Below, one piece after another: positions 1 through 34,600 of a stretch of DNA of 64,000 nt. The notes below the pieces were generated by a model. That model was not told the origin of the DNA. It did no database searches and worked only from the letters and a program-made list of their open reading frames with translations. Both the position numbers and the translations under genes were made by a program. The DNA is from Arcobacter cloacae (lineage in GTDB: Bacteria > Campylobacterota > Campylobacteria > Campylobacterales > Arcobacteraceae). Each line of letters opens with the position of its first letter. Position 1 is the first letter of the stretch. Location: the NCBI RefSeq assembly GCF_013201935.1, contig NZ_CP053833.1, forward strand, positions 1,426,001-1,490,000, in the 5' to 3' direction.

Positions 1-1674
<1,674 letters not shown>

Positions 1675-1693
1675 TTTATTCCTTTAAAATCCT

Positions 1694-1724
1694 AAAAGGC
1701 AAAGCTTTGGCTTTGCCTTTTTTT
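1694..1724 (+). terminator. Rho-independent terminator of icd
   Basis: A perfect 12-bp stem (arms 1694-1705 and 1710-1721) with a 4-nt loop runs into a T tract. It lies 20 bases after the icd stop and separates icd from malate dehydrogenase. Confidence 0.85.
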
Positions 1725-1773
1725 ATGCCCAAAAAGATATAATCATTTTAAATAAAAGTTAAAAGGTTATATT

Positions 1774-2712
1774 TTGAATAAAAAAACTGTTGGAATAGTT
1801 GGAGTTGGAAATGTAGGTTCAACTTTAGCTTTTACACTTGCTACTAAAAATATATGTTCAACTCTTCTTTTAAAAGATGTAAGAGAAAATTTTGTTCAAG
1901 CTATGGCACTTGATATTTCTCAAGCAACAAATGCTTCAAAAAGCAAAACTGTAACAAAAGCTTGTCTTAAAGATGAAGAGTTTAAAAATTGTGATGTTAT
2001 TGTTATAACTGCTGGAATTGCAAGACGTCCTGGAATGAGTAGAGATGATTTACTTCTTACAAATGCAAAAATCATGACTTCAGTTATAACACAAATTATT
2101 CCAAATAATCCAAATGCAGTAATTATAGTTGTTTCAAACCCTTTAGATGCAATGGTTTATATAGCTTTAAAAGCTTCAAATTGGTCAAGAAATAAAATTA
2201 TTGGAATGGCTGGAATTTTAGATAGTGCTAGAATGGCTCATTTTATATTTGAAAAATTAGGTTATGGTCAAGGACAAATTGAAGCTTCTGTTATGGGAGG
2301 TCATGGTGATGATATGGTTCCACTTGCAGATTTTTCAACAGTTGCAGGAGTTAGACTTAGTGAAGTTTTATCAAAAGAAGATATAGATGATATTGTATAT
2401 AAAACAAAAAATGGTGGAGCTCAAATAGTAAAACTACTTGAAACAGGTTCTGCTTATTATGCACCTGCATATAGTACAACTTTAATGATTGAAGCAATTT
2501 TAGAAGATAAAAAAGAGATTTATCCTTGTGCTGTTATGCTTGATGGTGAATATAGCTATGAAGATATAGTATCAGGTGTTCCTGTAATGTTAGGTGCAAA
2601 TGGTGTTGAAAAAATTATAGAATTAAATTTAAAAAATGAACAAAAAGAACAATTTTCAAAATCAATAGCTTCTGTTAAAGAATTGATTGATATTTTAAAG
2701 GAGAAATTATGA
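1774..2712 (+). CDS. mdh: Malate dehydrogenase
   Basis: NAD-dependent interconversion of malate and oxaloacetate (TCA cycle, cytoplasm). The 312 residues have the LDH/MDH fold: a GVGNVG dinucleotide loop at about residues 10-15, an acidic residue ending strand 2 that favours NAD, the ARRPGMSRDD active-site loop whose second Arg marks malate rather than lactate specificity, and the GGHGDD catalytic His near 175. The start is TTG at 1774, preceded by an AAAGG ribosome site; no ATG fits the conserved N-terminus better. The stop overlaps the next gene's ATG by four bases, so the two are probably translationally coupled. Confidence 0.92.
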   Translation: MNKKTVGIVGVGNVGSTLAFTLATKNICSTLLLKDVRENFVQAMALDISQATNASKSKTVTKACLKDEEFKNCDVIVITAGIARRPGMSRDDLLLTNAKIMTSVITQIIPNNPNAVIIVVSNPLDAMVYIALKASNWSRNKIIGMAGILDSARMAHFIFEKLGYGQGQIEASVMGGHGDDMVPLADFSTVAGVRLSEVLSKEDIDDIVYKTKNGGAQIVKLLETGSAYYAPAYSTTLMIEAILEDKKEIYPCAVMLDGEYSYEDIVSGVPVMLGANGVEKIIELNLKNEQKEQFSKSIASVKELIDILKEKL

Positions 2713-3094: not shown

Positions 3095-3502
3095 ATGAAA
3101 GTAGTTATTGGTGTAGTAGGTAACGATATTCACGTAGTTGCGAATAGACTAATTGATATATCATTACAAGCAAGAGGATTTGAAGTTTTTAATTTAGGAG
3201 TTAATACCTATTTAGAAGAGTTTATCGATGCAGTTATTGAAACGAATGCAGATGTTTTACTAATCTCTTCATTAAATGGTGAAGCAGAAGGTTGGTGCAG
3301 AGACCTACCTATTTTAAAATCAAAATATAAAAACTTAAAAGATGTGGTTTTTATGTTAGGTGGAAACTTAGCAGTTGGTGAAGGTGACGCTAGTGTTATT
3401 GTTCCAAAATTTAAAAACTATGGTTTTGATTTAGTATTTCATCAAGTTGATTTAAATACGGGACTTGATGAATTAGAAAAATTCCTAAAGGAGAGAAATT
3501 GA
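3095..3502 (+). CDS. glmS: Glutamate mutase small (sigma) subunit, B12-binding
   Basis: Small subunit of coenzyme-B12-dependent glutamate mutase (L-glutamate to (2S,3S)-3-methylaspartate). The 135 residues form a single Rossmann-like cobalamin domain, the usual family length. The cobalt-ligating His lies in DIHVVA (residues 11-16), where the family signature is DxHxxG, so the Gly is replaced by Ala. The later SSLNGEAE and GGNLAVGE segments match the loops that hold the nucleotide tail. It is the first gene of a tightly packed operon with glmE (overlapping), glmL and an adenylating enzyme. The symbol glmS here means glutamate mutase, not glucosamine synthase. Confidence 0.88.
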   Translation: MKVVIGVVGNDIHVVANRLIDISLQARGFEVFNLGVNTYLEEFIDAVIETNADVLLISSLNGEAEGWCRDLPILKSKYKNLKDVVFMLGGNLAVGEGDASVIVPKFKNYGFDLVFHQVDLNTGLDELEKFLKERN

Positions 3503-4866
3503 GTTTACTGCAAGAAGAAAGAAACATAATTGTTCAAAATAAATACGCAGATAATTTTGATTTTGCAGAGATTGAAGAGTTCATAAAAAATGCTTCTAAA
3601 AATCTTTTTATCTCTCACCATTTCAAAAATTCTAAAAAGATGTTAGTTCAACCACGAGGTGGTTTTCCTACTTATAAGAAAATGTTCTCTTTATATGAAT
3701 TTTTCGTTGGTGCTGATGTTGATGTATTACCATGTACAATTGACTCAAATACTAGATTAAATGATTATGCAACAAGTGCTAAGATGCTAAAACTTTCTGA
3801 AGAAAATGAAGTTGATATGCTAAATGGTTATCCACTTGTAAATCATGGTTATAGAACTACAAGAAAAATGATGACTCATTTTGATAAACCAATTTCTTTG
3901 CGACATGGAACTCCTGATGCAAGATTATTAATAGAAACAGCATTAGCTTCTGGTATTTTTGAAATTGAAGGTGGACCAATTACTTATCTTTTACCTTATT
4001 CAAAAAACTTTCCACTTGATAAAGCTTTTATGTATTGGAAATATGTTGAAAGAATTTGTGCTAACTACTCAAAATTAAATGAACCAATAAACAGAGAATC
4101 TTTTGGTCCATTAACTGCAACACTAGTTCCTCCTTGTGTAACAATAGTTATTCAACTTTGTGAAATGCTTTTATCACTTGAAGAAGGAGTAAAATCATTC
4201 TCTGTTTCATTTTCACAAACAGGTTCTATGATTCAAGATATAGTTACAGCTAAAGTTCTTAGAAAAATGGCAAAAGTTTATGCAGAACAAATTGGTTGTG
4301 GTGATGCTAGAATTAATTTAGTTTATCATCAATGGATGGGAGCATTTCCATCAAATAAAGATTTTTCAGAATCACTAATAAATACTTCAACAGTAATTGC
4401 TATGATGGTAAAAGCTGATAAAATTATTACAAAAACAAGAGATGAAGCATTTGGAATTCCAACACGAGAATCAAATGCAAAAACAGTTGCAAATACTCAA
4501 TATACACTAAGAATGTTACATGGTATTCCTGATATTACTGATGAGATGGAAGAAGAAATCCTAACTGAAGAAGTAAAAAGTATCATGGAAGCTGTATTTA
4601 ACGATAAAGCAGACACTTTATGGAGAAAGGTATTTAACTCTATAAAAGCAGGAATTATTGATGTTCCATACTCTCCTCATATTATAAACCATAATGAAGT
4701 AGTAACAGTAAGAGATAAAAATAAAAATATCAGAATCATAAAAAGAGGAAATCTTCCAATAAGTGATAGATGTTTTGAATATGAAAAATCAAAATGTGAT
4801 TTAAATAAAGATGCTTCGTCAATAGTAACTGACATTATTCATGATATAGGAATTATGCAATGGTAG
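3499..4866 (+). CDS. glmE: Glutamate mutase large (epsilon) subunit
   Basis: Catalytic TIM-barrel subunit of glutamate mutase; 455 residues, slightly shorter than the ~480 of clostridial enzymes. Substrate-binding arginines known from the Clostridium enzyme appear preserved in QPRGG, DSNTRLND and LRHGTPDAR, and the catalytic Glu in EGGPITY. VYHQWMGAFP, KTRDEAFGIPT and FGPLTATLVPP are also family hallmarks. The start is TTG, overlapping the glmS stop by four bases after a GGAG ribosome site, so subunit synthesis is coupled. It overlaps glmL at its 3' end. Function is well supported; the fate of the methylaspartate product is not. Confidence 0.92.
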   Translation: MSLLQEERNIIVQNKYADNFDFAEIEEFIKNASKNLFISHHFKNSKKMLVQPRGGFPTYKKMFSLYEFFVGADVDVLPCTIDSNTRLNDYATSAKMLKLSEENEVDMLNGYPLVNHGYRTTRKMMTHFDKPISLRHGTPDARLLIETALASGIFEIEGGPITYLLPYSKNFPLDKAFMYWKYVERICANYSKLNEPINRESFGPLTATLVPPCVTIVIQLCEMLLSLEEGVKSFSVSFSQTGSMIQDIVTAKVLRKMAKVYAEQIGCGDARINLVYHQWMGAFPSNKDFSESLINTSTVIAMMVKADKIITKTRDEAFGIPTRESNAKTVANTQYTLRMLHGIPDITDEMEEEILTEEVKSIMEAVFNDKADTLWRKVFNSIKAGIIDVPYSPHIINHNEVVTVRDKNKNIRIIKRGNLPISDRCFEYEKSKCDLNKDASSIVTDIIHDIGIMQW

Positions 4867-6044
4867 AAAATAAATTATTAATAGATGTGGGAAGTACATA
4901 TTTTAAAACTTGTGCAAATGGAAATGTAGAACAACATTTTAGAGATTTCAATAAAGATATTTTTGATGATTTAACTTCTAAATGTGGTGATACAATCTCA
5001 AAATTTAAAAAAGATGAAGTATTTATTTGTTCTTCTGCAAATGGTGGATTAACTACATTAATTATTGGAGTTACAAACTCTTTTTCTTTAAAATTTGCAA
5101 CAAATATTGCTTATAATTCAGGAATAAATATCATAAATACTGTTTTATATCAAGATATTGAAACAACTTCAATACCAAGTGATTTAATTGATGTTGTTAT
5201 TATTGTTGGTGGTATAAATAGTGTTAATGATATTTTTGATGAAAGATTATTTAAGTTTTTAGAAAATCTTAGATATTCAAATGTTGTTTTTGCAGGTTCT
5301 AAACTTGATGAAGAGTATTTAAAATCAAATATTAAAAATTTAGTTGTTGTTGAAAATATAATCAACAATAAACTTCATGTGGTTGAAGAGCCATTAAAAG
5401 AGTATTTAACAAACCTTTATCAAGCTGATATTATGGGGAAAGAAGATATAAAACATCTTTATGATTTAACTTCAAATCAAATCTATTCTACACCATATAT
5501 TGTAAATAAAACTCTTCCATTAATTGATACAAAATTTGCAGTTGTAAATCCATTTATTTTAATAGATATTGGTGGAGCTACAACAGATATTCATTATTCA
5601 AAAGATTTATCTATGGATAATATGGTAACTCAAAATGAATATGATAGATTAGTATTCAAAAAACTTGGAGTTTACAAATCAAAAGAGTCTTTAATTTTTG
5701 CAGCTAAAAACAATGAATTTGTTTATGAATTATTGGCTCATTTAAAAGTTACAGAAAATATTTTTAATGAAGATTCACCTAAATCATTGAAAATCCTAAT
5801 GCAATTAGCAATTTTCTTAGTTTTATACAAAGTTAGTGATGCTCATCCTTTATATATAAAATTAAAGTTAAATCTACTAAAATCTATTGTTTTAACGGGT
5901 GGAATTACAAAAGTTCTTAGTTTTGAAGAAGCTGTTGATATTATCTCATTTTTTTATAAGAAAATATTAAACTCAGATATTCATCCTTCAATTATCATGG
6001 ATTATGACTATGATATTTGGACTCTTGGTATCACACAACAATAA
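4860..6044 (+). CDS. glmL: GlmL/MutL-type glutamate mutase accessory ATPase
   Basis: A 394-residue ASKHA-fold (actin/Hsp70-like) protein of the MutL/GlmL type encoded with glutamate mutases. Visible motifs are the N-terminal phosphate loop LLIDVGSTYFKT (residues 5-16), a second phosphate motif LIDIGGATTDIHYS near 235-250, and a C-terminal adenosine segment VLTGGITKV. Its role is not firmly established; a chaperone or cofactor-handling function for the mutase is proposed for the family. It is shorter than the ~460 residues common in clostridia. It overlaps glmE by seven bases and is followed 11 bases later by the adenylating enzyme. Confidence 0.85.
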   Translation: MVENKLLIDVGSTYFKTCANGNVEQHFRDFNKDIFDDLTSKCGDTISKFKKDEVFICSSANGGLTTLIIGVTNSFSLKFATNIAYNSGINIINTVLYQDIETTSIPSDLIDVVIIVGGINSVNDIFDERLFKFLENLRYSNVVFAGSKLDEEYLKSNIKNLVVVENIINNKLHVVEEPLKEYLTNLYQADIMGKEDIKHLYDLTSNQIYSTPYIVNKTLPLIDTKFAVVNPFILIDIGGATTDIHYSKDLSMDNMVTQNEYDRLVFKKLGVYKSKESLIFAAKNNEFVYELLAHLKVTENIFNEDSPKSLKILMQLAIFLVLYKVSDAHPLYIKLKLNLLKSIVLTGGITKVLSFEEAVDIISFFYKKILNSDIHPSIIMDYDYDIWTLGITQQ

Positions 6045-6055
6045 AGGTGGTAATT

Positions 6056-7624
6056 ATGTCAATAAATTGTATAAGAACATTAATTGAAGATGCAAATATT
6101 TCAAATCCAAATAAAGTTGCTTTAATTCATGGAAATAACAAACTAACTTATAGTGAATTATTTTCAAAAGTTAATCAAATAGCTTTATATTTAAGTGAAC
6201 TTAATCTTCCAAAAGGTAGCAGAATTGGTATTTATTCAAATAAAGGAATAGACCAAGTAATAGCTATATTAGCAATTTTATCTACTGATTATGTTTTAGT
6301 TCCTCTAACAAGATTATTAAAACCTGAGCAAGTTGAATATATTATTGGTGATTGTGACATAAAATGTATAATTACAGATAGAATAAAAATAGAATCAATT
6401 GAAGAGATAAAATTTGATGGACATATTATCTCTTATGAAACAACACATAAAGATTTACCCTCTTTTGAAGAAATTTATAAATATTATAATAAACCTTACT
6501 CTTGTGATGTAAATGGGCATGATAATGCTGTTATAACTTACTCTTTTGGACTAAGTGGAAAACCAAAAGGCATAGTGATTTCTCATAGAAATTTAATAGA
6601 TAGTGCTAGAGTTGTATCACAATATTTACATTTAGAAGAAGATGATATTATCTCTGGTTTATTGATTTTCAATCTTGATTATGGATTAAATCAAATTTTT
6701 TGCTCACTTTATAAAAGAGCAACTCTAGCTTTACATAGATTTGTTTTACCAAATGACTTTTTTAATCATGTTATAAATGATAAAGTTACAGTATTACCTT
6801 TAATGCCTATTAATATTACTGAAATGTTTGATGAAGATGAACATAGGCTTCCAAATAAAGAGCTTCTTAAAAATGTAAGAATTATTACAAGTTCAGGTGG
6901 AAATGTTACTAAAAAAATGATTTCTGATATTGAGAAATATTTTGCAAATGCAAAATTTTACTCAATGCATGGTTTAACAGAAGCATTTAGATCAACATAT
7001 TTAGATCCAGCTCAATTAAAAATAAGACCTGATTCTATTGGAAAAGCAATTCCAGATGTGGAACTTTATGTAATAGATGAAAATGGAAATGAATGCCCTC
7101 CTAGAGTTATTGGTGAATTAATTCATAGGGGTGGATATATTTATAGAGGTTTTTGGAATGCGCCAAAAGAGACAAATGAAAGATTTAAATCTATAGAAAT
7201 ATTAAAGAATGTAATAAATCTAGAAGGTCAACTTTGTGATGAAATAGTTGTAAAAACAGGAGATTATGTTTACAAAGATGAAGAAGGATTTTTATACTTT
7301 GTATCAAGACATGATGATATGATAAAAACAAGAGGTTTTAGAGTAAACCCTTACGAGATAGAATCTGTTGTAGAAACAAATATAAAAGAGATTGAAAGAT
7401 GTGCTGTATTTTCAATAGAAAATGAAGAGATAGAAGAAGAGATTGTTTTAGTTTATACAGGAAAAAATGAGTTAAGTTCAAATGAAATTTTATTTGAATT
7501 AAAAAATCACTTAGCTTCATATATGCTTCCTTCTAAAATTATTTACAAAAAATCTTTACCTTTAGTTCCTTCTGATAAAAATAAAATAAATAAAGAAGAA
7601 TTAAAAAAAGAACTGACAAAATAA
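6056..7624 (+). CDS. AMP-forming adenylating enzyme (acyl-CoA synthetase / amino-acid adenylation family)
   Basis: A 522-residue ANL-superfamily enzyme that activates a carboxylate as acyl-AMP. Core motifs are a P-loop YSFGLSGKPKG (about residues 162-172, with FGL instead of the usual SG-T), MHGLTEAF, KTGDYVYKDEEGF, the hinge RHDDMIKTRGFRVNP, and a C-terminal Lys in PSDKNKINK. The start at 6056 is chosen because GGTGG precedes it; an in-frame ATG at 6017 lies inside glmL without a ribosome site. Position behind glutamate mutase suggests an amino-acid substrate. The actinomycete VinN enzyme, which adenylates 3-methylaspartate beside a glutamate mutase, is the closest precedent I know. No carrier-protein gene is adjacent. 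The substrate is inferred only. Confidence 0.8.
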   Translation: MSINCIRTLIEDANISNPNKVALIHGNNKLTYSELFSKVNQIALYLSELNLPKGSRIGIYSNKGIDQVIAILAILSTDYVLVPLTRLLKPEQVEYIIGDCDIKCIITDRIKIESIEEIKFDGHIISYETTHKDLPSFEEIYKYYNKPYSCDVNGHDNAVITYSFGLSGKPKGIVISHRNLIDSARVVSQYLHLEEDDIISGLLIFNLDYGLNQIFCSLYKRATLALHRFVLPNDFFNHVINDKVTVLPLMPINITEMFDEDEHRLPNKELLKNVRIITSSGGNVTKKMISDIEKYFANAKFYSMHGLTEAFRSTYLDPAQLKIRPDSIGKAIPDVELYVIDENGNECPPRVIGELIHRGGYIYRGFWNAPKETNERFKSIEILKNVINLEGQLCDEIVVKTGDYVYKDEEGFLYFVSRHDDMIKTRGFRVNPYEIESVVETNIKEIERCAVFSIENEEIEEEIVLVYTGKNELSSNEILFELKNHLASYMLPSKIIYKKSLPLVPSDKNKINKEELKKELTK

Positions 7625-7648: not shown

Positions 7649-7716
7649 GACTAGAATCAATAAAAGTTTAAGAATATTTCTATATAATTTTGCTATCTTA
7701 CAAAAAAGGATTATTC

Positions 7717-7995
7717 ATGAAAAAAATAATTATCTCTACAGCTTTACTAACTGCATGTGTTGCATTTGCAAACCCTTATGCAAAATGTGCTACTTGTCAT
7801 GGTGCAAATGGTGAAAAAGTTGCTTTAGGAAAATCTAAAATCATCAAAGATATGACTAAAGAAGATTTCATAGCTTCTATGAAAGGTTACCAAGATGGAA
7901 CTTATGGAGGAGCTCAAAAAGCTTTAATGGTTGCACAAGTTAAAGATATGAGTGAAGAGACTATAAAAGAAATAGCAGATTTAATAATCAAATAA
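7717..7995 (+). CDS. Periplasmic c-type cytochrome (cytochrome c553-like)
   Basis: A 92-residue class I cytochrome c. It has a Sec signal peptide (residues 1-19, ending at AFA), then one haem site CATCHG just after cleavage, and candidate distal Met ligands in ALMVAQVKDM. It would shuttle electrons in the periplasm; c553-type cytochromes are common donors to terminal oxidases and peroxidases in Campylobacterota. The start at 7717 is preferred over the upstream in-frame codon at 7690 because AAAGGA precedes it and it gives a normal signal peptide. It is a single-gene unit, ending at a hairpin shared with the convergent gene. Confidence 0.88.
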   Translation: MKKIIISTALLTACVAFANPYAKCATCHGANGEKVALGKSKIIKDMTKEDFIASMKGYQDGTYGGAQKALMVAQVKDMSEETIKEIADLIIK

Positions 7996-24668: not shown

Positions 24669-24687
24669 GTGGGAAATAAGTGGGAAA
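24669..24687 (+). repeat. Tandem GTGGGAAA repeat at the integrase start (candidate arm-type site)
   Basis: Two direct GTGGGAAA copies 11 bp apart, overlapping the integrase start codon. The same arrangement recurs at 33954-33972 near the other end (17 of 19 bases identical). Paired sites near both att sites fit integrase arm-binding sites. Confidence 0.5.
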
Positions 24688-25813
24688 TATTGAAGCAAAA
24701 ACGATCAATTATTCTAAAAGATTTAATACCAAATTTAATGGTGTGTTTTATAGAGAATCTATAACAAATGATAAGCTAGATAAAACATATTATATCAGAT
24801 ACAAAGATAAAGACAATAAAGATAAAGAAATAAAAATAGGCAAATATTCTGAGGGATTTAGAGAAAATTATTGCAATCAATTAAGAAATGAAATTATAAC
24901 AAAACAAAGAATTGGAGAAGAACCTCCAGCTGCAGCAAGAAATAAAAAGAGAACAATCTTATCAATTGAAACTATTTCAGAAAATTATTTTTCTGAAAGA
25001 AAAGAGGGACAAAATAAAGGGACAGATAAATCAAATTATAAAAACTACATATTACCCTACTTTAAAACTCTTGACTTTGAAAACATATCAAAAGATGATA
25101 TACAAACATTTTCTAATCAATTAAAAAAAACAAAATCATTAATAAAAAAAGACCTTATTTCAGATAAAACAATAAATAATATTTTAAACTTTTTAAAAGC
25201 TCTGATTAAATACGCATTTAGAAATGACTATATCAAAAATGACTTTTCAAAATATATTCAGTTATTAGAGATAGATAATGCTCGAGAAAGATTTTTAACT
25301 AAAGATGAGATAAAACTATTGTTTGAATATTCAAAAGATGATGAGACCCTTTATTTGCTTTTTAAACTAGCATTAAATACTGGAGGAAGATTAGCAACCC
25401 TATTAAATATCCATAAAAAAGACATTGACTTTACACATGATTTAATAACACTAAAAGACTTCAAAAATAATAGTACATATAAAGCTTTTTTAACTGATGA
25501 TTTAAAAGAGCTTCTAGAGAAAAGAGTAAATTCTTTAAAACCAAATGATATACTTTTTACATCAAATCCTGAAAGAAGATTAAGAGCTAAATTAGACGAA
25601 CTATTTAACAAAGATATTGATGATAACGATAGAAAAAATAAGATTGTTTTTCACTCTTTAAGACATACTTTTGCAAGTCATTTAGCTATTAATGGAACAC
25701 CTATCTTTACAATTCAAAAGCTTATGAACCATAGAGATATTAGAATGACTTTGCGATATGCTAAATTAAGTCCTGATAGTGGTCGAGAAGCTGTTATTAA
25801 TTTAGGATTGTAA
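24680..25813 (+). CDS. int: Tyrosine-type site-specific integrase
   Basis: A 377-residue tyrosine recombinase: an N-terminal arm-binding-like region (1-95), a SAM-like core-binding domain (about 100-195), and a catalytic domain with Arg in TGGRLATLLN (~232), HSLRHTFASH (HxxR), a later His in LMNHRDIRMT, and the nucleophile Tyr in LRYAKLS. It catalyses integration and excision between the tRNA-Glu att repeats. GTG start with AAGGTGGG upstream. Location beside the left repeat, reading inward, is standard for tRNA-targeting elements. It is followed 19 bases later by the small relaxase-like gene. Confidence 0.93.
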   Translation: MGNIEAKTINYSKRFNTKFNGVFYRESITNDKLDKTYYIRYKDKDNKDKEIKIGKYSEGFRENYCNQLRNEIITKQRIGEEPPAAARNKKRTILSIETISENYFSERKEGQNKGTDKSNYKNYILPYFKTLDFENISKDDIQTFSNQLKKTKSLIKKDLISDKTINNILNFLKALIKYAFRNDYIKNDFSKYIQLLEIDNARERFLTKDEIKLLFEYSKDDETLYLLFKLALNTGGRLATLLNIHKKDIDFTHDLITLKDFKNNSTYKAFLTDDLKELLEKRVNSLKPNDILFTSNPERRLRAKLDELFNKDIDDNDRKNKIVFHSLRHTFASHLAINGTPIFTIQKLMNHRDIRMTLRYAKLSPDSGREAVINLGL

Positions 25814-25832
25814 ATTTGAAAAAGGATAAATT

Positions 25833-26438
25833 ATGTTGCCAGATGAATTAGAAGAAGAATTAAAACGGCGAAGAGCCCTAGAACCAATCGAAAAAGTTTT
25901 TTGTCCCTCTTATGAAAGGGAAAAATATCAACATGGTAAAATTCCAGTTATAAAAAATATATCTTCACTTGGACCAATCAATACAAAAAATGCTTTGGAA
26001 TATATCACAAAAAACACTAATGATGGTTTATTGTTTTCTAAAGATGGAGAAAAAATAAGTGTTGAAGATAAATATAATGAATGGAAAAAAGATTTTTCCC
26101 TTTTAGAAAATAGTAAAGAAGCTTTGCATTTAGTTTTTATTATTAACGAAAAGAAAAATGCAAAAAATTTTGAAGTTTTAGAAAAAAGTGTTTTTGATAC
26201 TCTCCGCGAAAATTTTTTTGAATATGACTATATTTATGTGTTACATAAAACGCAAGAAAAACCGCACGCTCATGTTATATTAAATAAAAGAAATATCTAT
26301 ACAAAAAAGAAAATTCATTTAAATAATAATGATTTTGAAGCATTCTTTGGAAAATTAAGAAGCGATTTTGCGGATAATCTAAATTTTTATAACAAAGATT
26401 TTAACTATAAATCTTATTATAATGACTTTGAGATATAA
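25833..26438 (+). CDS. Small relaxase/mobilization nuclease-like protein
   Basis: A 201-residue protein with two features of MOBP/VirD2-type relaxases: a Tyr motif (NALEYITKN, about residues 49-57) and a histidine metal motif KPHAHVILNKRN (~148-159) preceded by a typical strand-helix (ALHLVFIIN ...). Relaxases nick oriT and covalently hold the DNA 5' end during transfer. It is short: only the nuclease domain, with no helicase, primase or long tail. It is probably co-transcribed with the integrase. It could instead be a replication or excision nuclease for the element. The gene appears intact. Confidence 0.62.
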   Translation: MLPDELEEELKRRRALEPIEKVFCPSYEREKYQHGKIPVIKNISSLGPINTKNALEYITKNTNDGLLFSKDGEKISVEDKYNEWKKDFSLLENSKEALHLVFIINEKKNAKNFEVLEKSVFDTLRENFFEYDYIYVLHKTQEKPHAHVILNKRNIYTKKKIHLNNNDFEAFFGKLRSDFADNLNFYNKDFNYKSYYNDFEI

Positions 26439-26457
26439 AAAGCTATCGTTTGATAGC
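26437..26457 (-). terminator. Terminator of the ART-ATPase cargo operon
   Basis: On the reverse strand: GCTATC-AAAC-GATAGC followed by five T. It begins 28 bases after the stop of the 320-aa gene and defines the 3' end of the four-gene operon; it also touches the relaxase-like stop on the other strand. Confidence 0.75.
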
Positions 26458-26484
26458 AGAAAAAAAACTAAAATCTGCTAAGTA

Positions 26485-27447
26485 TCAAAAAACTAAATCT
26501 TTAAAAAAATCATAATGAGCAAAACTATAAACTTTATTAGTAGTCAATTTATTTTTATATGCATTTATCTCTGATTCATCACCTATTCTAACAGCAAGTA
26601 AGAAATTATAAATATCTATTTCTTTTCCTTTTAGCATTTTTATATCTTTGCTCAATAATAATTCATTTATAGAATTAAATGTATCCTCTTCTTTACTATA
26701 TATAACTAATTCAAATATATCTAAAAGTTCTATAACATTCCATTTTTTTATAGCTTCAAAATTTTTATTAAAAATTTCTTTGAATCCTTTTTTATCTTTT
26801 GATACCATCTTACATTCAATTAAAGTATATATTCTTGTACTATCAAATCCAAAAAGATCTTTGGCTATTTTACAAAGCTCTAGCATTCTTGTTTTATCTT
26901 TTAAATAGCTAAATCTCTCCTTTTCACTTTTTAGAGAAATCAATTTATAAAGTAAAATGTCATTATAATAAATATTGTCTTCTTGAATTATATTAAGTTT
27001 ATTTAAAATATTTATGAATTCTATAACTTCTGTATATTCTGATTCTGAATACTTAGTGTATATTATATAAAATATAAAATCTATGTTTTTAATGTTTTCC
27101 TTAAAAAGTTTTTCTATATTCTCTTTTTTTAAATACTTTGTTATATATTTTACATACTCTCTTGTTTTTACTTTTAAATCATTTATACTATTATTAAAAT
27201 TAGAAAAAATATCTTCTATTTTCATTAATAAATTATCTATATCTTCTTTATTTAGTTTATTATTAACAAACTTATCAAGTAAGTTTTTCCTTGATTCATC
27301 TGTTACATTTGGAGCTAAAAGTAAACTGTTTAAAAATGTTTCATTATTTTTATCTATTTTTGATAACATTTCATTATTCAACAAATAAGTATAATCTAAA
27401 TTAATATTTAATTTTTCTAAAAATAGTTTATAATTCAATTTTTTCAC
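26485..27447 (-). CDS. Unknown all-helical protein, last gene of the cargo operon
   Basis: A 320-residue protein with no family I recognise. It reads as almost wholly alpha-helical: short amphipathic helices rich in Lys, Asn, Ile and Leu, repeated every ~35-40 residues (e.g. FYIIYTKYSESEYTEVIEF, ALxL-like pairs near 190-290), which could be a TPR/HEAT-like solenoid. No membrane span, signal peptide or obvious catalytic motif. Its start overlaps the ATPase stop by 20 bases, so the products are likely made together and may interact. An effector-, sensor- or scaffold-type role is possible; nothing in the sequence decides. Confidence 0.6.
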   Translation of the reverse strand: MKKLNYKLFLEKLNINLDYTYLLNNEMLSKIDKNNETFLNSLLLAPNVTDESRKNLLDKFVNNKLNKEDIDNLLMKIEDIFSNFNNSINDLKVKTREYVKYITKYLKKENIEKLFKENIKNIDFIFYIIYTKYSESEYTEVIEFINILNKLNIIQEDNIYYNDILLYKLISLKSEKERFSYLKDKTRMLELCKIAKDLFGFDSTRIYTLIECKMVSKDKKGFKEIFNKNFEAIKKWNVIELLDIFELVIYSKEEDTFNSINELLLSKDIKMLKGKEIDIYNFLLAVRIGDESEINAYKNKLTTNKVYSFAHYDFFKDLVF

Positions 27448-28321
27448 CTATAAGTGTTCGATCAATTTGATTTGATATATCTATAACCTGTTTTTTATAT
27501 AAATCATTATCTTCTTCTCTTTCCCACACTGTAAAATCATTTGTTACTATTACTGAAGCATAATCTATTTCCATAATACCTTTCCAATTAAAAGCATTTT
27601 TTAATTCTTTATTATCATCTAAATTTGCTTCTGATTTAAGTTGCTCAATTTTATTATCACTATCTTTGGGTTTTAAAGATAAAACTCTTATTATATTATG
27701 CTTTTTCTTTGCAGATTCATCATTTATTAAATCTAAAACAGAGTTAATACCTTTTATATTTTGTTTGTTATAAGCAGATACTAAAATCTTTAAATCCACT
27801 TCAGTAGAAAACAAAATATCACCAATTTCTGTAAAACCTGTTCTTGAGTCAAAAAATATATAATCATATTGACCAGTTTCTAGAAGTTTATCCTTTATAG
27901 CATCAAAAATAGCATCTGAAAGGGTCATATTTTCACTTATTTTTTCTTTTAATTTTGAGTTTAAATCATAACTAAATTGTGAAAATTTTACTAATAACTC
28001 ATGATAAGGTCTAATATTTGTCATATCATATATAGGTACTAAACTTAAGTTATCTGATATTTTTCTTACACATAGTTTATTTGTATCTTCCTCTCCACTA
28101 AAATATTTAATTATGTAGTTAAGCAGATAGTCTTCTCCTTCGGCCTTAAGGTCATAAGTATCATCCCAATAACTTAGTCCAGGAGCATGAATGTCAAAAT
28201 CTACCATCAAAATATTTTTACCTTTTGAAGCTAAATATTTGGCACTATTTAACATAAGTTGAGTTCTTCCTACTCCACCTTTAAAACTATAAAAAAGCAC
28301 TGTTTTTGTATTAGCATTCAT
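27428..28321 (-). CDS. ParA/MinD-like ATPase with KGGVGRT P-loop
   Basis: A 297-residue SIMIBI-class ATPase. The deviant Walker A is SFKGGVGRTQ (about residues 12-21): the signature Lys is present, but the Lys of GKT is Arg. It is followed by LMVDFDIHAPGLSYWDD (A' motif with the 'D-D-APGL' pattern), and Walker B-like YIFFDSRTGFTEIGD (~152-166). KGGVGRT/APGL ATPases are a distinct subgroup often encoded beside conflict- or signalling-type proteins rather than beside parB. No parB or parS-like gene is adjacent. It overlaps both neighbours, so it acts with them; switching by nucleotide-dependent dimerisation is inferred from the class. Confidence 0.8.
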   Translation of the reverse strand: MNANTKTVLFYSFKGGVGRTQLMLNSAKYLASKGKNILMVDFDIHAPGLSYWDDTYDLKAEGEDYLLNYIIKYFSGEEDTNKLCVRKISDNLSLVPIYDMTNIRPYHELLVKFSQFSYDLNSKLKEKISENMTLSDAIFDAIKDKLLETGQYDYIFFDSRTGFTEIGDILFSTEVDLKILVSAYNKQNIKGINSVLDLINDESAKKKHNIIRVLSLKPKDSDNKIEQLKSEANLDDNKELKNAFNWKGIMEIDYASVIVTNDFTVWEREEDNDLYKKQVIDISNQIDRTLIGEKIEL

Positions 28322-28550
28322 CTTCTTTAACCTTTGCTTTTAATTTTTCAGTCATTATTTTTAATCTGCCAGACGTTATTTTTATTTTTTCATTTATTTC
28401 ATTTTTTCTAACTTCTTCGTATATATCTTTTAGAGTTAGATAGCTTTCATTATCTGTAGAAATATTATTTTTAGTTATACATTGTTCTAGTTTTTCAAAA
28501 AACTCTTCTTTGTTTAATCGAAAATAATTGTAAAGTTGATTTAATTTCAA
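28311..28550 (-). CDS. Unknown 79-aa protein between the ART and ATPase genes
   Basis: A small, charged, probably helical protein (79 residues) without a recognised domain. It begins ATGA-overlapped with the ART gene stop and overlaps the ATPase start by 11 bases. DUF3990-type proteins are often paired with a small helical partner (DUF3791 is one); this one does not look like DUF3791 but occupies the same genetic position, so an antitoxin or adaptor role is a reasonable hypothesis. Confidence 0.55.
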   Translation of the reverse strand: MKLNQLYNYFRLNKEEFFEKLEQCITKNNISTDNESYLTLKDIYEEVRKNEINEKIKITSGRLKIMTEKLKAKVKEDEC

Positions 28551-29056
28551 AATATATCTACCTTTTTAAATTCTTGTATTACATCTTTACTTTTAACACA
28601 AATTTGTATATCACCATATGCAAAAAGAGTCTTGGCATTCGAATTTATAGGTACGAAATGATTTTTTGCTTTTAAATCCATCATTGAAATTACTTTTAAG
28701 TCTATATCTAATTCATAAATTAAAAAATCAATAAAAGAACCAAAGTGTAAACCTTTTTTCATACAAACTTCATTAAATATCTTTAAAACTTCAAGTTCAT
28801 TTGACCATTTTGATGATGTAAAATTTAAAATTTCATCTTCATTAACTTGCAATTCAATTTCTAAAACACTATTTAAACCATTACTCTCATGTTGATTATC
28901 TGTCCAATTCTTAGCTCTATATGGTGAATCTCTCCATAAATAAAATCCACAACCTAAAAAATGATCTTGGTATTGTTTATACTGAAAGTTTATATCTTCT
29001 TTAGACTTAATTTCTTTATTCGTACCATGATAACCAATAGCCTTAAAAATAGCCAT
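28547..29056 (-). CDS. DUF3990-like ADP-ribosyltransferase-fold protein
   Basis: A 169-residue protein whose layout fits the small ADP-ribosyltransferase (ART) families near DUF3990. YHGTN at residues 9-13 supplies the first-motif His; LGCGFYLWRDSPYRAKNW (~33-50) matches the FGxGFYxTxxxxxAxxWA strand-helix with the second-motif Tyr; the C-terminal GDIQICVKSKDVI corresponds to the QIxFxTxxAL segment where a Gln or Glu forms the third motif. If active it would transfer ADP-ribose from NAD+ to an unknown target. It is the first gene of the cargo operon. The family call is from motif reading and needs structural confirmation. Confidence 0.62.
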   Translation of the reverse strand: MAIFKAIGYHGTNKEIKSKEDINFQYKQYQDHFLGCGFYLWRDSPYRAKNWTDNQHESNGLNSVLEIELQVNEDEILNFTSSKWSNELEVLKIFNEVCMKKGLHFGSFIDFLIYELDIDLKVISMMDLKAKNHFVPINSNAKTLFAYGDIQICVKSKDVIQEFKKVDIF

Positions 29057-29357
29057 TTATTCTCTCTTTTTAATTCTAATTTTAAATTTTCATAGATTAT
29101 ACTTAAAATTTATTTATATCTAAATTTTTCTATTTATTTCTATTCAAATTTTTAGTAGTGTATTGTATCATTTTTTTAATATTACAATAAATTATTGCAT
29201 TACTATATTTTATTTGTTTTTATTATATGAAGAAAAATAAAGGCTAATACTTCAAAATATACAAAAATATTATATTTAAATATAAGACTCTTTTTCAGTG
29301 AGTTATTATTACTCCTAACTCACTAAAATGAAATTTATATCACTAAAATACTTTTTA
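29057..29357. other. Intergenic region upstream of the cargo operon
   Basis: About 300 bases of very AT-rich DNA between the ART gene and the broken mobilization gene. It must hold the cargo promoter, but no clear -35 is visible. A 9-bp hairpin (29297-29305 with 29316-29324) sits after the mobilization gene; it lacks a T tract on either strand. Confidence 0.6.
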
Positions 29358-30686
29358 TTAATCTCTTTCAAATCCTCTATCTTTATTGTTAGCCTTTTTA
29401 ACGTCTATTCTAGGCATTTTCTCTTTTATAAGCTCTTTTATTTTATCAAAATCGGATGTTTTAAAATATGCTGTTGCAAATAATTTAAATCTTTCATATT
29501 GATTAGCTTTCTCTTGTAAGATATCATTACTTTTTTCTAATTGTTCAACTTTTCGATTGAGTTCTTCTTCTTTGCTCTTTGATTTTACAATAAAGCTATC
29601 TACACTTTCAGTCTGATAAATATATCGTTCTTCTTTTTTTAGTATGCCTTTTGAGATAGTAACTCTCTCTTTAAGAATTTCCCCTTTTACTGTTAAAGTT
29701 GTATTTTTTTCTTTTTGCTCCAGTTTAGTTAATTTTTCATTTTGAATATTTATAGTTTTAACTTTTTCATCTATTAATTGTTTTAAATCTTCTAAACTTA
29801 GCTCTTTAAGTTCTAATTGCTGTTTTAAATCTTTATTTACTTACTCTAGCTTTGCATACTCTGGTCTAGTTGCTTTTTGTTCTTTTAACTCTTCTCTTTG
29901 ATTGTTTATTGCTAATTTTAATAATCTAAGTTTTTCTAAATACTCTTCTTTTTCTTTCATAACAGCTTTATACTCTTTATGACCTAATCTTTTTGCTTTA
30001 CTTCCATGTTCTCCTCTTTCCATTCCTAAGTGTTCAGCAACAATATCTTGAAGCTTTATAAGCTTAGTTCTGTTCATGTGTTCTCTTCTATACATTTGTT
30101 GTCCAGTTTCTTTATCAAGAGTAAAAAAACTTATATGTGCATGATGATTTTTTCTAATTAGTTTTCCATCTTTTTCTTGACCTTCATCTTTATGAATTGC
30201 AACTTGAATTGTTTGAAATCCAGTTTCTTTTTCAATTTTTTTTGCGAGTTCTAAAACATCATTTAACTTATGCTCTGTTTTTAAATTTACTATTGCTTCC
30301 CATAAAGTATTTTTTTTATCAGCTGTTTTATTTAATCCTTTTTCTAATCTATTTTCTTTAGCTATTTTATACATTTCATTAAACTTTATTAATGCTTCTT
30401 TTGAGCCAATATCAAACTCATTATCTTTTGTATATTCTTCAAAGATTGTATTAGCTTTTTTTTCTTCTTCTCTAGCATTATGTTTAAAAGCATGGATATT
30501 TACTTTTTGAAAATTTATAGAAGATTTTGCAACTTTTTTACTTGAAGAATTTAATTTATTTTTTTCGCCCGCGAAATTATTAGTAGTATTTTCATAATCA
30601 TTTTTTGAAGTTTTAAATCCACCTTTTGGAGTTGGTGTTCCACTATTTTTTTCAAATTCATCTTCTAATTCATATTCAAAACTCAT
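29358..30686 (-). pseudogene. MobA/MobV-like relaxase interrupted by an in-frame TAA
   Basis: A mobilization protein of about 442 codons split by one stop. Residues 1-281 contain the relaxase domain: FQTIQVAIHKDEGQ, NHHAHISFFTLDKETG (histidine motif, ~175-190) and NRTKLIKLQDIVAEHLGMERGEHG. A TAA at 29841-29843 then ends the frame, but the same frame stays open for 160 more codons with a Lys/Glu coiled coil and DRGFERD end, stopping at 29358-29360. No frameshift is needed. The N-terminal part could still be made as a truncated relaxase. The downstream part has no good start. It lies just downstream of the oriT-like palindrome. Confidence 0.8.
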
Positions 30687-30720
30687 TAGAAAAACTCCTC
30701 CCTTTTTTATAAAAAGAATC

Positions 30721-30819
30721 TACCCTTGTGGTAGAAGCAACTAAATTACAATTTCAATTGGATAGTGCGCACTATCCAATAGACTAAGTCTATTTATAGT
30801 TTTACATACCACAAGGGTA
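30721..30819. repeat. Nested inverted repeats, candidate oriT
   Basis: Outer perfect 13-bp arms TACCCTTGTGGTA (30721-30733) and complement (30807-30819) enclose a perfect 24-bp palindrome (30757-30780, centre TGCGCA) and a smaller AGACT-A-AGTCT element. Directly upstream of the mobilization gene, which is the usual place for oriT. The nic site cannot be named. Confidence 0.6.
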
Positions 30820-30869
30820 TAGAAATAAAAGGGAGAAATCAATCTCCCAATTTTTATCACACATTCAAT

Positions 30870-31124
30870 TCACTCACGCCCTGCTCTGCGTTTTATATTT
30901 TGTTTTTCAATCGTTTCTGTAAGTAGTTCAATTTTATCTTCATCTATACATATTGATTTTCTTGCCAGTTCTGCCATGTCAGCTAAAGCGCTACTCAAAA
31001 ATAAATTTTGGTCGAATAATTCTGAAATTTCAGCTTTCAGAATCATATTTTCTATTTTCAAATTCTCATTTCTTGATGTTTCATTTTTTTTAATTAACTC
31101 TTCTATTGTATAATTCTTATTCAT
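30870..31124 (-). CDS. Small coiled-coil protein of the mobilization region
   Basis: An 84-residue, highly charged protein, largely coiled coil (about 8-70), ending in a basic tail KRRAGRE. No known domain. It sits between the VirB6-like gene and the candidate oriT, in the same orientation as the mobilization genes. A relaxosome accessory or oriT-binding role is plausible from position and the basic end, but it lacks a recognisable ribbon-helix-helix motif. Confidence 0.5.
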   Translation of the reverse strand: MNKNYTIEELIKKNETSRNENLKIENMILKAEISELFDQNLFLSSALADMAELARKSICIDEDKIELLTETIEKQNIKRRAGRE

Positions 31125-31209
31125 GATTTTCCTTTTTATATTTCTAAAAGCTTTGCACTTTGAATGTTTAGATAGCCTTGAATTCTATTTGCTTTCATGC
31201 TCTGCGCTC

Positions 31210-32223
31210 CTATCTAATTTGCACTTTATTTGCTAATGCGTCTTTTAGCCCACTTACTATTGTTCTACCTGCACTTTTTGCTGTTTGATTAATCGCTTGT
31301 CCAGCAAATTTCAATCCAGTGTATTTTGAAAACGAGCTTATCATAGCCCCACCAGCTGATAAAGTACCTACACCACTTGTTAAACTACTTCCCTCGTTTG
31401 AGCTACCTATCAACTGATTAATAATATTAGGTATTTTAAACACTCCAATAATCACTAAACCTTGCGCTAATATTAGAACTAAAATAAATTGTATATTTTG
31501 TTCAAAACTTGTATCTATTGCCTTAGCTGTTACCATAGTTAAATCAACTACTTTTATTGATACTAAACCGAAAAGTATTGTAAACGGAGCATACAAAGAA
31601 ATAGATATATAAAGTTTTAGCCACGAAAAAAATACATACTCTGTTTTCTTCCAAATTAATGTAGGTAAAATAAGAGGTAATAAAGCTAAAACAATCTCAC
31701 TTAAAAAGATTGAAAAAACAGTATTTAAAATAATCACTAACATCAATAAAGACCCAGAAAACCAAACAATAATTCCATAAATAAAAGGAGCAATATCTGT
31801 AATACCTCCTTTATCAAAAATACTTTTAGTAATTAATGTTTGTGCGCTGTACAATGAATTAATGATATTTTCAACATCAGCTGAATTATTAGCTTTTCTA
31901 ATTAAACTATGTATTGCTGTTGTAAATGTTTCTCTTGGTAAATTAAAAATATCAATTAAATTCTGATATACAGAATGATTTATTAATAACATTTTTACAG
32001 TTGAAAAAACCAATATAGTCCATATTGATTTATATGCTATTTCTTCACTTCCAAATTTTTTAAAAGCAATCATAAAGCCGATATAAATTATTGCAAAAGC
32101 AAAAGCAATATTGAAAAATCCGTTATCAAAAATCGCTTTCGAACTTTGATACAAGCCATTCTGAATATCTCCAGTTACATTTTCGAATATGGCTATCAGA
32201 TATTTAAAAATATTTTGTTCCAT
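31210..32223 (-). CDS. TrbL/VirB6-like type IV secretion membrane protein
   Basis: A 337-residue polytopic inner-membrane protein. Six or seven hydrophobic segments (about 28-52, 60-80, 145-170, 172-195, 200-225, 240-262) and a Gly/Ser-rich C-terminus match TrbL/VirB6 proteins, which line the inner-membrane part of conjugative channels. It is the only T4SS channel component in this element; no VirB4, VirB8-10 or coupling protein is present. It may plug into a helper system or protect against a second element. Starts immediately at the stop of the 98-aa gene. Confidence 0.75.
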   Translation of the reverse strand: MEQNIFKYLIAIFENVTGDIQNGLYQSSKAIFDNGFFNIAFAFAIIYIGFMIAFKKFGSEEIAYKSIWTILVFSTVKMLLINHSVYQNLIDIFNLPRETFTTAIHSLIRKANNSADVENIINSLYSAQTLITKSIFDKGGITDIAPFIYGIIVWFSGSLLMLVIILNTVFSIFLSEIVLALLPLILPTLIWKKTEYVFFSWLKLYISISLYAPFTILFGLVSIKVVDLTMVTAKAIDTSFEQNIQFILVLILAQGLVIIGVFKIPNIINQLIGSSNEGSSLTSGVGTLSAGGAMISSFSKYTGLKFAGQAINQTAKSAGRTIVSGLKDALANKVQIR

Positions 32224-32520
32224 TTAGATTTCCTTTCGCCAATTATCAGGATTTTCTCCCTTTTTATTCTCCTCTAATTTTCTTAATTCTAATTTTATTT
32301 TTTCAAATTCATCTTTAGCGCTAAAAGGTGTTTTTATATAACTTTTTAGATTTTTAATCTCCTCTTCAAGTTCCATTCGAGTAGTTAGTAAATCTGTAAT
32401 ATAAGCTTTTGAATCTTTTATCAAATTATCTGATGCTATATATAAGCTTATTAAGATAGCTCTTTCTTTTTCCAATTCCAATATCTTCTCTTGTAATTGT
32501 TTTTTGCTTAGATGATTCAT
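32224..32520 (-). CDS. Hypothetical coiled-coil protein
   Basis: A 98-residue protein made mostly of Glu/Lys/Leu-rich helices (two coiled-coil segments, about 3-30 and 45-85). It overlaps the DUF4373-type gene by four bases and abuts the VirB6-like start, so it belongs to the same operon. No family or function recognised; possibly a structural or regulatory partner of the mobilization apparatus. Confidence 0.5.
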   Translation of the reverse strand: MNHLSKKQLQEKILELEKERAILISLYIASDNLIKDSKAYITDLLTTRMELEEEIKNLKSYIKTPFSAKDEFEKIKLELRKLEENKKGENPDNWRKEI

Positions 32521-33140
32521 TGTAGTATTTCCTTTAATAAATAATCTTGATGATTTTCTGCATAATCGACAGTTTTTTGAAGACCTATTTTTTCAATAAA
32601 CTTCAAAGTTGCATTTTCTAATGAAAGTTTTTGTATGTTCACTCTAGATAGTTCTTCTGATGATAAAGACGAAAGAGATAATAATGCCTCTATATTTTCT
32701 TTTATTTTATTTACTTTACTTTTATTTAATTGTTCAACATTCGTTGAACGGCCGTTTAATTTTTGTTCAATTTTCTTATTCCTTCTTGCTTCTCCACTTT
32801 TAATTCCAGCTAGTTTTGCTTGCTCTCTTTTATTATTCATAAGCTCCATACGTTTATTTAAACTACAACTAAAAAAGAATGTGTCATTTTCAACTACAAA
32901 CAAATCATAATTTCTAACAACTACTTCCATTTTTACGACAGTAGTATTATACTTTCGAGCTAAACTTGAAAGTAATTTAAGAGGATATATAAAGTTTTTT
33001 TGTTGCCTAAGTGTTTCAACTAAGACCCAAAATATTCCGTAACCTTCAAGTCCTAATTCTTCAATTAAAAGCATGCATTTAGGGTCATCTTTTGCATCAC
33101 TATCATGAGAGAAATAGTATGCATCTTTTTTATTTGACAT
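32517..33140 (-). CDS. DUF4373 (Lin1244/Lin1753 N-terminal) domain protein
   Basis: A 207-residue protein. The first ~95 residues (YYFSHDSDAKDDPKC, ELGLEGYGIFWVLVETLRQ, then a winged-helix-like stretch) match the DUF4373 domain found at the N-terminus of phage and plasmid replication-initiation or primosome-loader proteins. The C-terminal half is a basic low-complexity linker (RRNKK) and a short helical end. In this element it may start replication of the excised circle, or regulate. First gene of the DUF4373-coiled coil-VirB6 operon; a repeated CACTTTTGACC site lies upstream. Confidence 0.68.
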   Translation of the reverse strand: MSNKKDAYYFSHDSDAKDDPKCMLLIEELGLEGYGIFWVLVETLRQQKNFIYPLKLLSSLARKYNTTVVKMEVVVRNYDLFVVENDTFFFSCSLNKRMELMNNKREQAKLAGIKSGEARRNKKIEQKLNGRSTNVEQLNKSKVNKIKENIEALLSLSSLSSEELSRVNIQKLSLENATLKFIEKIGLQKTVDYAENHQDYLLKEILQ

Positions 33141-33210
33141 AATAATCCTTATTTACTTTTCCAATAAGAAAACTATGCTAAGATTCCATATTGCCTTATT
33201 GGTAATACTA

Positions 33211-33251
33211 GTCCACTTTTGACCGTTCGCCAAAACTTTTTAAAAGTGGAC
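33211..33251. repeat. Inverted repeat between the HTH and DUF4373 genes
   Basis: A perfect 10-bp inverted repeat, GTCCACTTTT (33211-33220) and its complement (33242-33251), three bases beyond the HTH gene stop and 71 bases upstream of the DUF4373-type start. The left arm begins a CACTTTTGACC motif (33214-33224) repeated exactly at 33635-33645. Operator rather than terminator, since no T tract follows. Confidence 0.5.
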
Positions 33252-33253
33252 GC

Positions 33254-33490
33254 CTAACTAACTTTTATATTTTGAGAATTTAAAAATTCTAGTAATTTTG
33301 TTTTCAAATACATCACCCTATTTTTTGACCCCTTTCCTACTTTTATGTATTCCAGAGAAATACCCTCTGCTCTCCAGTTTGCTAAAGTACTTGAAGATAC
33401 ACCTAAAAGTTGTGAAACTTGAGACTGATTTAAGCAAGCTTGTTTTCTTTGCTCTGGTGGCAAAATTGAATTTAGCTCTTGTAAATTCAT
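33254..33490 (-). CDS. Helix-turn-helix (AlpA/excisionase-like) protein
   Basis: A 78-residue DNA-binding protein. LNQSQVSQLLGVSSSTLANWRAEG (split here over about residues 20-43) is a MerR/excisionase-type helix-turn-helix, followed by a wing (YIKVGKGSKNRVMYLKTKLLEFL). Proteins of this size next to integrases act as recombination directionality factors or regulators (AlpA type). It is near the right att site and may control excision together with the integrase. Starts at ATG with AAAGGAG upstream. Confidence 0.75.
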   Translation of the reverse strand: MNLQELNSILPPEQRKQACLNQSQVSQLLGVSSSTLANWRAEGISLEYIKVGKGSKNRVMYLKTKLLEFLNSQNIKVS

Positions 33491-34021
33491 AGAAACTCCT
33501 TTATTATAAAGATTGTGTTTATTTCATAATTATTTGAAACATGAAATTATAAACATTAAAAATTCTAAATGTCAAATGAGAAAATCAATTTTAGTGCTTC
33601 AAATTAGCTTAGATAAATATACGCATTTTTGACTCACTTTTGACCCACTTAAAACTTCTATAAGACCGATAAATTAGCTCTTAGATAAACTTTTCTTGAA
33701 ACTGAAAAATGAAATTTAAAAATTCGTAAAATTTTGATTTTTTTGAAGTTTTTTTTATTGAAGTTTTTTGATATTTTTTGCTGTTTTTTGCATGTAAGTG
33801 TTAAAATTAATATTAATTCTGTTTTCATTAATATCTTTTTTCATTTGATTAAATAATGAAATAAATTAAGATTTAGTTAAATTTAAAGATGAAATAAGCA
33901 ACTTTTTATAATTAGAACTTTTCTAATCTTAAATATTGTAGTTTAATAAACTAGTGGGAAATGGGTGGGAAAGAGTAAATTTCAATAAAACTTAAAAAGC
34001 TTTAGAAAGCCCTTTAAATCA
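33491..34021. other. 530-bp non-coding right end of the element
   Basis: No convincing gene. It is very AT-rich with poly-A/T tracts (33670-33800 notably), contains the second CACTTTTGACC copy (33635-33645) and the tandem GTGGGAAA site (33954-33972). It is likely to hold promoter and operator for the HTH gene, integrase and excision factor arm sites, and possibly a replication origin. Confidence 0.6.
33954..33972 (+). repeat. Tandem GTGGGAAA repeat near the right attachment site
   Basis: GTGGGAAAT-GG-GTGGGAAA, matching 17 of 19 bases of 24669-24687 in the same orientation and lying 50 bases inside the right att repeat. Candidate integrase arm-type site. Confidence 0.5.
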
Positions 34022-34071
34022 ATGGCGACCCCAGCAAGATTCGAACTTGCGTGTTTAGGAGGAAATCCTAA
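34022..34071. repeat. Right attachment repeat (inside intact tRNA-Glu)
   Basis: The 50-bp direct repeat shared with the left end. It spans the tRNA 3' half from CCA to the anticodon stem; identity stops at 34071 within the tRNA. Confidence 0.88.
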
Positions 34072-34098
34072 CGTCCTTGGCCACTAGACGACAGGGTC
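34023..34098 (-). tRNA. tRNA-Glu (anticodon TTC), element integration target
   Basis: A 76-nt cloverleaf on the reverse strand with acceptor stem starting GACCCTG, D arm GTCTAGTGGCCAAGGAC, anticodon loop ATTTCCT (anticodon TTC) closed by TTAGG/CCTAA, T arm GTTCGAATC and encoded CCA. The gene is regenerated intact at the element's right boundary, so glutamate decoding is preserved. Confidence 0.93.
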
Positions 34099-34156
34099 AA
34101 ATTTAAGAGGAATATTATATTTTAGTTTGAGTTTGTTTTTGCTTAAAACTTCTGTA

Positions 34157-34600
34157 TTATCGTAACTTTAAACTTTGTTTTTTTGATAATTTAATTATAG
34201 TTGATGCTTTTGTTTCATAAAAACCTCTTTTATCTTCCACAATTATCTCAGCACCATTTTGTGCAAAATCTCTTTCAAACTTCTCAGTGGTTTTATTTGC
34301 AGAAGTAGAATATAAAACACCAAATTTATGAATAAAATTGTAAAAATCTGAATTCTTATCTACTACTCTAAAAGAGTGTCCATTTGGATAAATAAATGTA
34401 GTTTTCTTACTATTTCTTACTTTTTTTCTAAAATTTTTTGGAACTCTTGTATTTTTATTTAATGTGGAAAATGAATCAACCGTATTTAAAATCTTCTTTG
34501 TTTGAGGTCTTTGTTTTAATAAAGAAAGTTTCTCATCACTTGATGATGAGAAACCTACTGTTGTATCTGTTTGAACAAGATAAATTAGATTTGAATCCAT
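34157..34600 (-). CDS. Sua5/YciO/YrdC-family protein (short form)
   Basis: A 147-residue protein related to threonylcarbamoyl-AMP synthase (TsaC/Sua5). LVQTDTTVGF at the N-terminus matches the family's PTDTVYGL entry, and LLKQRPQTKKIL matches the KxRP region; VLYSTSANKTTE matches the STSAN motif. It is shorter than TsaC (~190), lacking part of the C-terminal domain, so it may be a divergent t6A synthase or a nucleotide-binding relative. Its start overlaps the last base of carB, placing it in the carB operon. Confidence 0.72.
   Translation of the reverse strand: MDSNLIYLVQTDTTVGFSSSSDEKLSLLKQRPQTKKILNTVDSFSTLNKNTRVPKNFRKKVRNSKKTTFIYPNGHSFRVVDKNSDFYNFIHKFGVLYSTSANKTTEKFERDFAQNGAEIIVEDKRGFYETKASTIIKLSKKQSLKLR

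Follow-up and report, generated by a model that had tools for sequence, protein, structure and literature searches.

Gene content of the locus

We observed four genes in head-to-tail order, GlmS-GlmE-GlmL-ligase, in the window, by which we mean the whole 64,000-nucleotide stretch of Arcobacter cloacae DNA analysed here, from a genome of 2.81 Mb in two contigs (Table 1). The initial annotation had described glutamate mutase genes followed by an AMP-forming ligase, with no methylaspartase after it, and Pfam and NCBIfam matches confirmed all four reading frames (B12-binding/methylaspartate mutase S, Met_asp_mut_E, MutL and AMP-binding). The ORF listing begins the ligase at TTG 6017; homologues, with the N-terminus MSINCIR, favour ATG 6056 as the most likely start codon. 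The cytochrome gene downstream recurs in one to three copies at the same place in most Arcobacteraceae.

Table 1. Features of the window; the four-gene block spans 3095-7624 in the ORF listing.
Feature	Position	Strand	Length	Match or remark
GlmS/MutS, B12-binding subunit of glutamate mutase	3095..3502	+	135 aa	NF002612, 165 bits (cut-off 110)
GlmE/MutE, catalytic subunit of glutamate mutase	3499..4866	+	455 aa	PF06368, 387.6 bits
GlmL/MutL, divergent mutase accessory protein, ASKHA ATPase-type	4860..6044	+	394 aa	PF13941, 100.9 bits
Ligase, adenylation-domain-like protein with VinN-like pocket	6056..7624	+		PF00501, 202.6 bits
Monomeric isocitrate dehydrogenase and malate dehydrogenase	136..2712			Directly upstream of the block; the former cut by the window start
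Small monohaem c-type cytochrome	7690..7995			3' of the ligase; CATCHG
Region resembling an integrated mobile element	24680..34600			Integrase, MobA/relaxase-like, ParA-like and conjugation-type genes, read by eye

By their sequences, GlmS and GlmE are clearly subunits of glutamate mutase. GlmE matched the Clostridium cochlearium enzyme in the PDB (6h9e/1cb7, E=1.7e-80), and R66, R100, R149, E171, Y177, Y181, K326 and E330 (C. cochlearium numbering) showed no variation across 107 homologues; the first six of these are the substrate-binding residues expected of an E subunit, and all are present in our protein. In GlmS, the cobalt-ligand His13 sits in DxHxxA, not DxHxxG. D11, H13 and A16 are constant in 99/99 rows with letters there, and we count the Ala that replaces the final Gly in every member as a motif variant. 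GlmE scored 374 against the TIGR01503 equivalog cut-off of 390, slightly under it, and GlmL scored 82 against the NF040745 cut-off of 475, far under it; together these scores identify a divergent branch. Another uncharacterised mutase cluster lies on a plasmid of Methylobacter sp. YRD-M1, where a mutase that is divergent (30% to GlmE) and carries the annotation of a hypothetical protein has a B12-binding protein, asparagine synthetase A, an EamA transporter and an aminotransferase as neighbours.

Distribution and co-inheritance of the module

Among 300 relatives, glmE was present in 93, the ligase in 91 and both in 90, so that 90 of the 94 genomes with either gene possess both (Fisher p ~6e-72, a statistic that ignores phylogeny). 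Three genomes had glmE without the ligase and one the ligase without glmE, and three of these four are incomplete or fragmented assemblies. The four are G058 (97% complete), G076 and G092 (fragmentary glmE) and G275 (81% complete). In the genus to which the window belongs, the two genes occur together in 14 genomes and are both missing from 17. GlmS, GlmE, GlmL and the ligase were contiguous in nearly all of the ~40 loci that we read in Campylobacterales, and such recurrence in other genomes argues that the gene order is not due to chance. GlmL lies between GlmE and the ligase wherever the module is intact, and the ligase follows it immediately in 110 of 118 loci. Since pairwise distances of GlmE and ligase are also correlated (r=0.88 over 103 loci), the four genes travel together.

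Scanning species genomes with the ligase alignment revealed the same module in marine Gammaproteobacteria at a ligase identity of ~71-78%, with Neptuniibacter, Colwellia, Thalassotalea, Granulosicoccus, Haliea, HTCC2143 and HTCC2148 among the holders, and in single MAGs of Rhodothermales and Desulfobulbaceae. The high identity suggests that the module may have been transferred between Campylobacterota and marine Gammaproteobacteria. Among named sources, Aliarcobacter MAGs and Arcobacter caeni have the ligases closest to the one studied here. We considered the isocitrate and malate dehydrogenase genes as pathway partners and rejected them; among the genomes read, only that of the window and those of its closest congeners have them beside the module, which in other genera lies elsewhere. 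A search of the open literature for glutamate mutase in Arcobacter, Campylobacterota or Sulfurimonas returned nothing, and a broader one had no relevant paper among its top rows.

The ligase has a VinN-like substrate pocket

The best NCBIfam model for the ligase is TIGR03098, at 429.7 bits and under its cut-off of 592. When the ligase core (residues 195-345, window 6641-7093) was searched against the PDB, VinN entries were the sole matches at E<1e-4, and the alignment was gap-free across the pocket. In VinN, D230 holds the beta-amino group, and F231 and S299 are bulkier residues facing a shortened loop that bears K330 and R331 (PMC11253843). The initial annotation had proposed that the two pockets be compared, and we found counterparts of D230/F231/S299/R331 in D207/Y208/S279/R311 of the ligase, that is, the VinN-type set of an Asp for the amino group, a bulky next residue, and a Ser together with a loop Arg to hold the second carboxylate. 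D207, Y208, N211, Q212, S279 and R311 are constant in 119 homologues, and F310 is kept in all but one, which has L. These residues suggest a pocket that would fit an amino-dicarboxylic acid, and the adjoining mutase makes 3-methylaspartate the obvious candidate ligand. This is not proof; R311 is also common to the TIGR03098 ligases and thus cannot by itself establish 3-methylaspartate as the ligand. A structure model of the ligase (mean pLDDT 81.7) has the standard ANL fold. As a pointer to VinN specificity the fold search was discarded, VinN being among the top rows (Z 43.2) and tied with many ANL enzymes within Z 1.

Adenylation motifs vary across the ligase family

In GrsA, K517 of motif A10 stabilises the adenylation state and K434 of motif A8 the thiolation state (PMC11253843). 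The A8 lysine (K423) is kept in 118/118 members of the ligase family, and the E308-R428 pair, D402 and R417 are without variation. The pocket and AMP-site residues are 100% constant, yet the A10 position varies widely over 119 members (K 65, Q 35, R 11, L 4, E 3, V 1), with at least 23 changes of state on a FastTree tree from which the A10 columns were left out. A two-residue insertion in the A10 loop permits an alternative register; Lys is missing at both positions in 26 of the 119, and in 20 the loop is free of Lys altogether. The P-loop is remodelled as well, usually reading YSFGLTGTPKG against the canonical YTSGSTGKPKG. The Ser that ends the canonical T-S pair is replaced, nearly always by Phe (117/119), and the P-loop Lys is replaced by N or R in 13. 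Both motifs are intact in 19/19 acetyl-CoA synthetases of the same order and in three TIGR03098-like outgroups. The initial annotation took the protein for an ordinary AMP-forming ligase, but adenylation-specific residues have degenerated across the family; the window copy retains K507/K509 and the P-loop Lys, with SFGLSG in place of the canonical TSGSTG. We do not claim loss of adenylation for the window's strain, whose ligase has lysines at both A10 positions.

Pathway partners and linked genes

We searched for methylaspartase (PF07476) beyond the operon and obtained no match in the window's genome and one sub-threshold match among the other family members searched; none was noticed in the operon among the loci read. 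The carrier protein and decarboxylase that had been reported as missing locally are missing from the genome too, at least as dedicated partners. The carrier search (E<=0.001) returned AcpP only, with no other small carrier protein seen in window 16000-40000, and the search for a VinO-type PLP decarboxylase returned two PF02784 proteins only (411 aa and 617 aa), LysA-like and SpeA-like by size, both of which mutase-free relatives also have. Judged by these searches, the genome has the partners for neither the mesaconate route nor a complete VinN-VinL-VinO route to a macrolactam starter. The proposed analogy with VinN stands for one step, which has the pocket residues and the VinN-only core match behind it, and does not extend to the VinL carrier and VinO decarboxylase. 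Some congeners have additional carrier proteins not far from glmE; these were dismissed as weak matches of a kind that genomes lacking the glm genes have too. One congener, G018, has an unrelated ANL gene of 483 aa nearby.

Upstream of glmS and divergent from it, 77 of the 94 loci with enough upstream sequence (some of the 94 being duplicate records of one genome) have an RraA-family gene, which directly adjoins glmS in 64. All 77 linked proteins carry E/D-X20-R-D, which we take to be the exact form of the RraA metal-binding motif and in which E may be able to stand in for D. In the window's genome, the RraA gene of this subtype is unlinked to the module (G000:C1:1247015, locus L164). The subtype was found in all five genomes with the glm genes that we sampled and, among the RraA genes read from genomes that lack them, only in G041, which has no glmE.

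At L164 (G000:C1:1247015-1252394), three further genes come after the RraA-family one. The first encodes a 191-aa protein that by eye resembles gamma-glutamylcyclotransferase but matched no family, the second a 739-aa protein and the third the ovothiol synthase OvoA (TIGR04344/04345); several Arcobacteraceae have similar-sized genes and OvoA beside the glm module. Within the window's genus, OvoA occurs in 14/14 genomes with the glm genes and in 4/17 without. We rejected an ovothiol link to the module, as OvoA exceeded its cut-off in 156 of 300 genomes and several lineages with the glm genes have no OvoA; the association is probably ecological. An AspC/TyrB-type aminotransferase gene adjoins the RraA gene in ~20 gammaproteobacterial loci. 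It was rejected as a general partner of the module, since it is missing from 119/120 Campylobacterota relatives, the window's genome included.

Proposed role of the module

The block most likely serves specifically to handle 3-methylaspartate, in an anabolic or a regulatory role and not in mesaconate fermentation. GlmS and GlmE would convert glutamate to (2S,3S)-3-methylaspartate, with GlmL as the presumed reactivating or assembly factor of the mutase. We infer that the ligase would bind 3-methylaspartate as a beta-amino acid, with D207 gripping the amino group, R311 and S279 holding the free alpha-carboxylate and the distal carboxylate facing the AMP site. Our tentative preference is for a self-contained module in which the fourth protein recognises 3-methylaspartate and goes on to activate the methylaspartyl group or pass it on, towards a small product. 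The protein would in that case still be catalytic, and CoA or AcpP, the sole obvious thiol acceptors, might receive the group. Against this reading, the analysis turned up neither an acceptor protein nor a gene for the product or a later enzyme, and the variable A10 Lys and remodelled P-loop speak against ordinary ATP-dependent activation in many members.

Those same motif changes could instead mean that the fourth protein is a pseudo- or half-adenylase, which binds 3-methylaspartate together with an adenosine ligand (AMP or another), has kept its thiolation-state residues while losing ATP adenylation, and serves as a product sink, a sensor or a structural partner of the mutase. We consider this somewhat unlikely. 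The repeated changes at A10 beside an unchanging pocket, the near-universal Phe in the P-loop and the intact motifs of the acetyl-CoA synthetases all point towards it, as does the failure to find a dedicated carrier protein partner; they are offset by the Lys at one or both candidate A10 positions in the window copy and many others, by the A10 register, which the insertion makes uncertain, and by the P-loop Lys and most P-loop glycines, which are still there. A more specific version, in which a co-inherited pseudo-adenylase under strict selection for pocket, AMP-site and thiolation-state residues senses or captures 3-methylaspartate instead of activating it with ATP, perhaps along with AMP or with some ligand of the mutase cycle that resembles adenosine, is in our estimate unlikely.

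The linked RraA-family gene raises the question of whether the module feeds 2-oxobutyrate and isoleucine synthesis: transamination of 3-methylaspartate would give methyloxaloacetate, the RraA-family protein would act as a class II aldolase/decarboxylase to yield 2-oxobutyrate, and the ligase would be accessory. The majority of RraA/HMG-aldolase homologues have either of two metal-binding motifs and probably function as pyruvate aldolases of class II; HMG/CHA aldolase has oxaloacetate decarboxylation as an additional activity (PMC5065237). The gammaproteobacterial aminotransferase would supply the first step; in the Campylobacterota searched, it is missing from all but one. Nearly all relatives, with or without glmE, have threonine deaminase (TIGR01127), as does the window's genome, so an isoleucine bypass is unneeded and was rejected as the reason for the module. 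The ligase would also be left unexplained, and we find this route doubtful. Catabolic use, with the mutase opening glutamate fermentation or a methylaspartate cycle and an unrecognised enzyme performing the lyase step, would agree with the closer match of GlmE to catabolic glutamate mutases (33-38%) than to actinomycete ones (25-29%, Streptomyces plasmids). The genome-wide lack of methylaspartase and the VinN-like pocket with its conserved Arg make it very improbable, and the biosynthetic rather than catabolic use suggested in the initial annotation is, as far as it denies catabolism, likely.

Glutamate mutase has its established settings in fermentation, in the haloarchaeal methylaspartate cycle and in a few antibiotics. 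Here it belongs to a conserved and transferable module, seemingly not described before, which many Campylobacterota and marine Gammaproteobacteria share and in which it is tied to a single adenylation-like protein. The module suggests a B12-dependent metabolite or regulatory circuit that has gone unrecognised, and its ligase family is a natural setting in which to ask whether adenylation enzymes can do without the A10 lysine.

Comparison with known systems

The vicenistatin cluster of Streptomyces, in which glutamate mutase is encoded beside VinN, likewise combines the mutase with a stand-alone adenylating enzyme, whose four pocket residues have direct counterparts here. That system has the VinL carrier and the VinO PLP decarboxylase, neither type of which was found in this genome; the module described here, in contrast, includes GlmL, stands outside a polyketide cluster and belongs to a family in which the P-loop and A10 lysine are degenerate. 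The exosortase-A-associated acyl-CoA ligases of TIGR03098 are 34-35% identical to the ligase and have D207, R311 and the TEAFRSTYLDP segment in common with it. They differ in having A at 208 (here Y), T at 279 (here S) and a canonical P-loop and A10. Their partners are a TIGR03099 PLP decarboxylase and a carrier protein in exopolysaccharide-type clusters, as in Aureimonas and Sinorhizobium, where the TIGR03098 proteins adjoin genes for both, whereas the partner here is a mutase. The clostridial and enterobacterial operon glmS-mutL-glmE-mal includes methylaspartase, in whose stead the present module has the ligase, and our GlmL is strongly divergent; the same three mutase genes are nevertheless present, and the active site is conserved.
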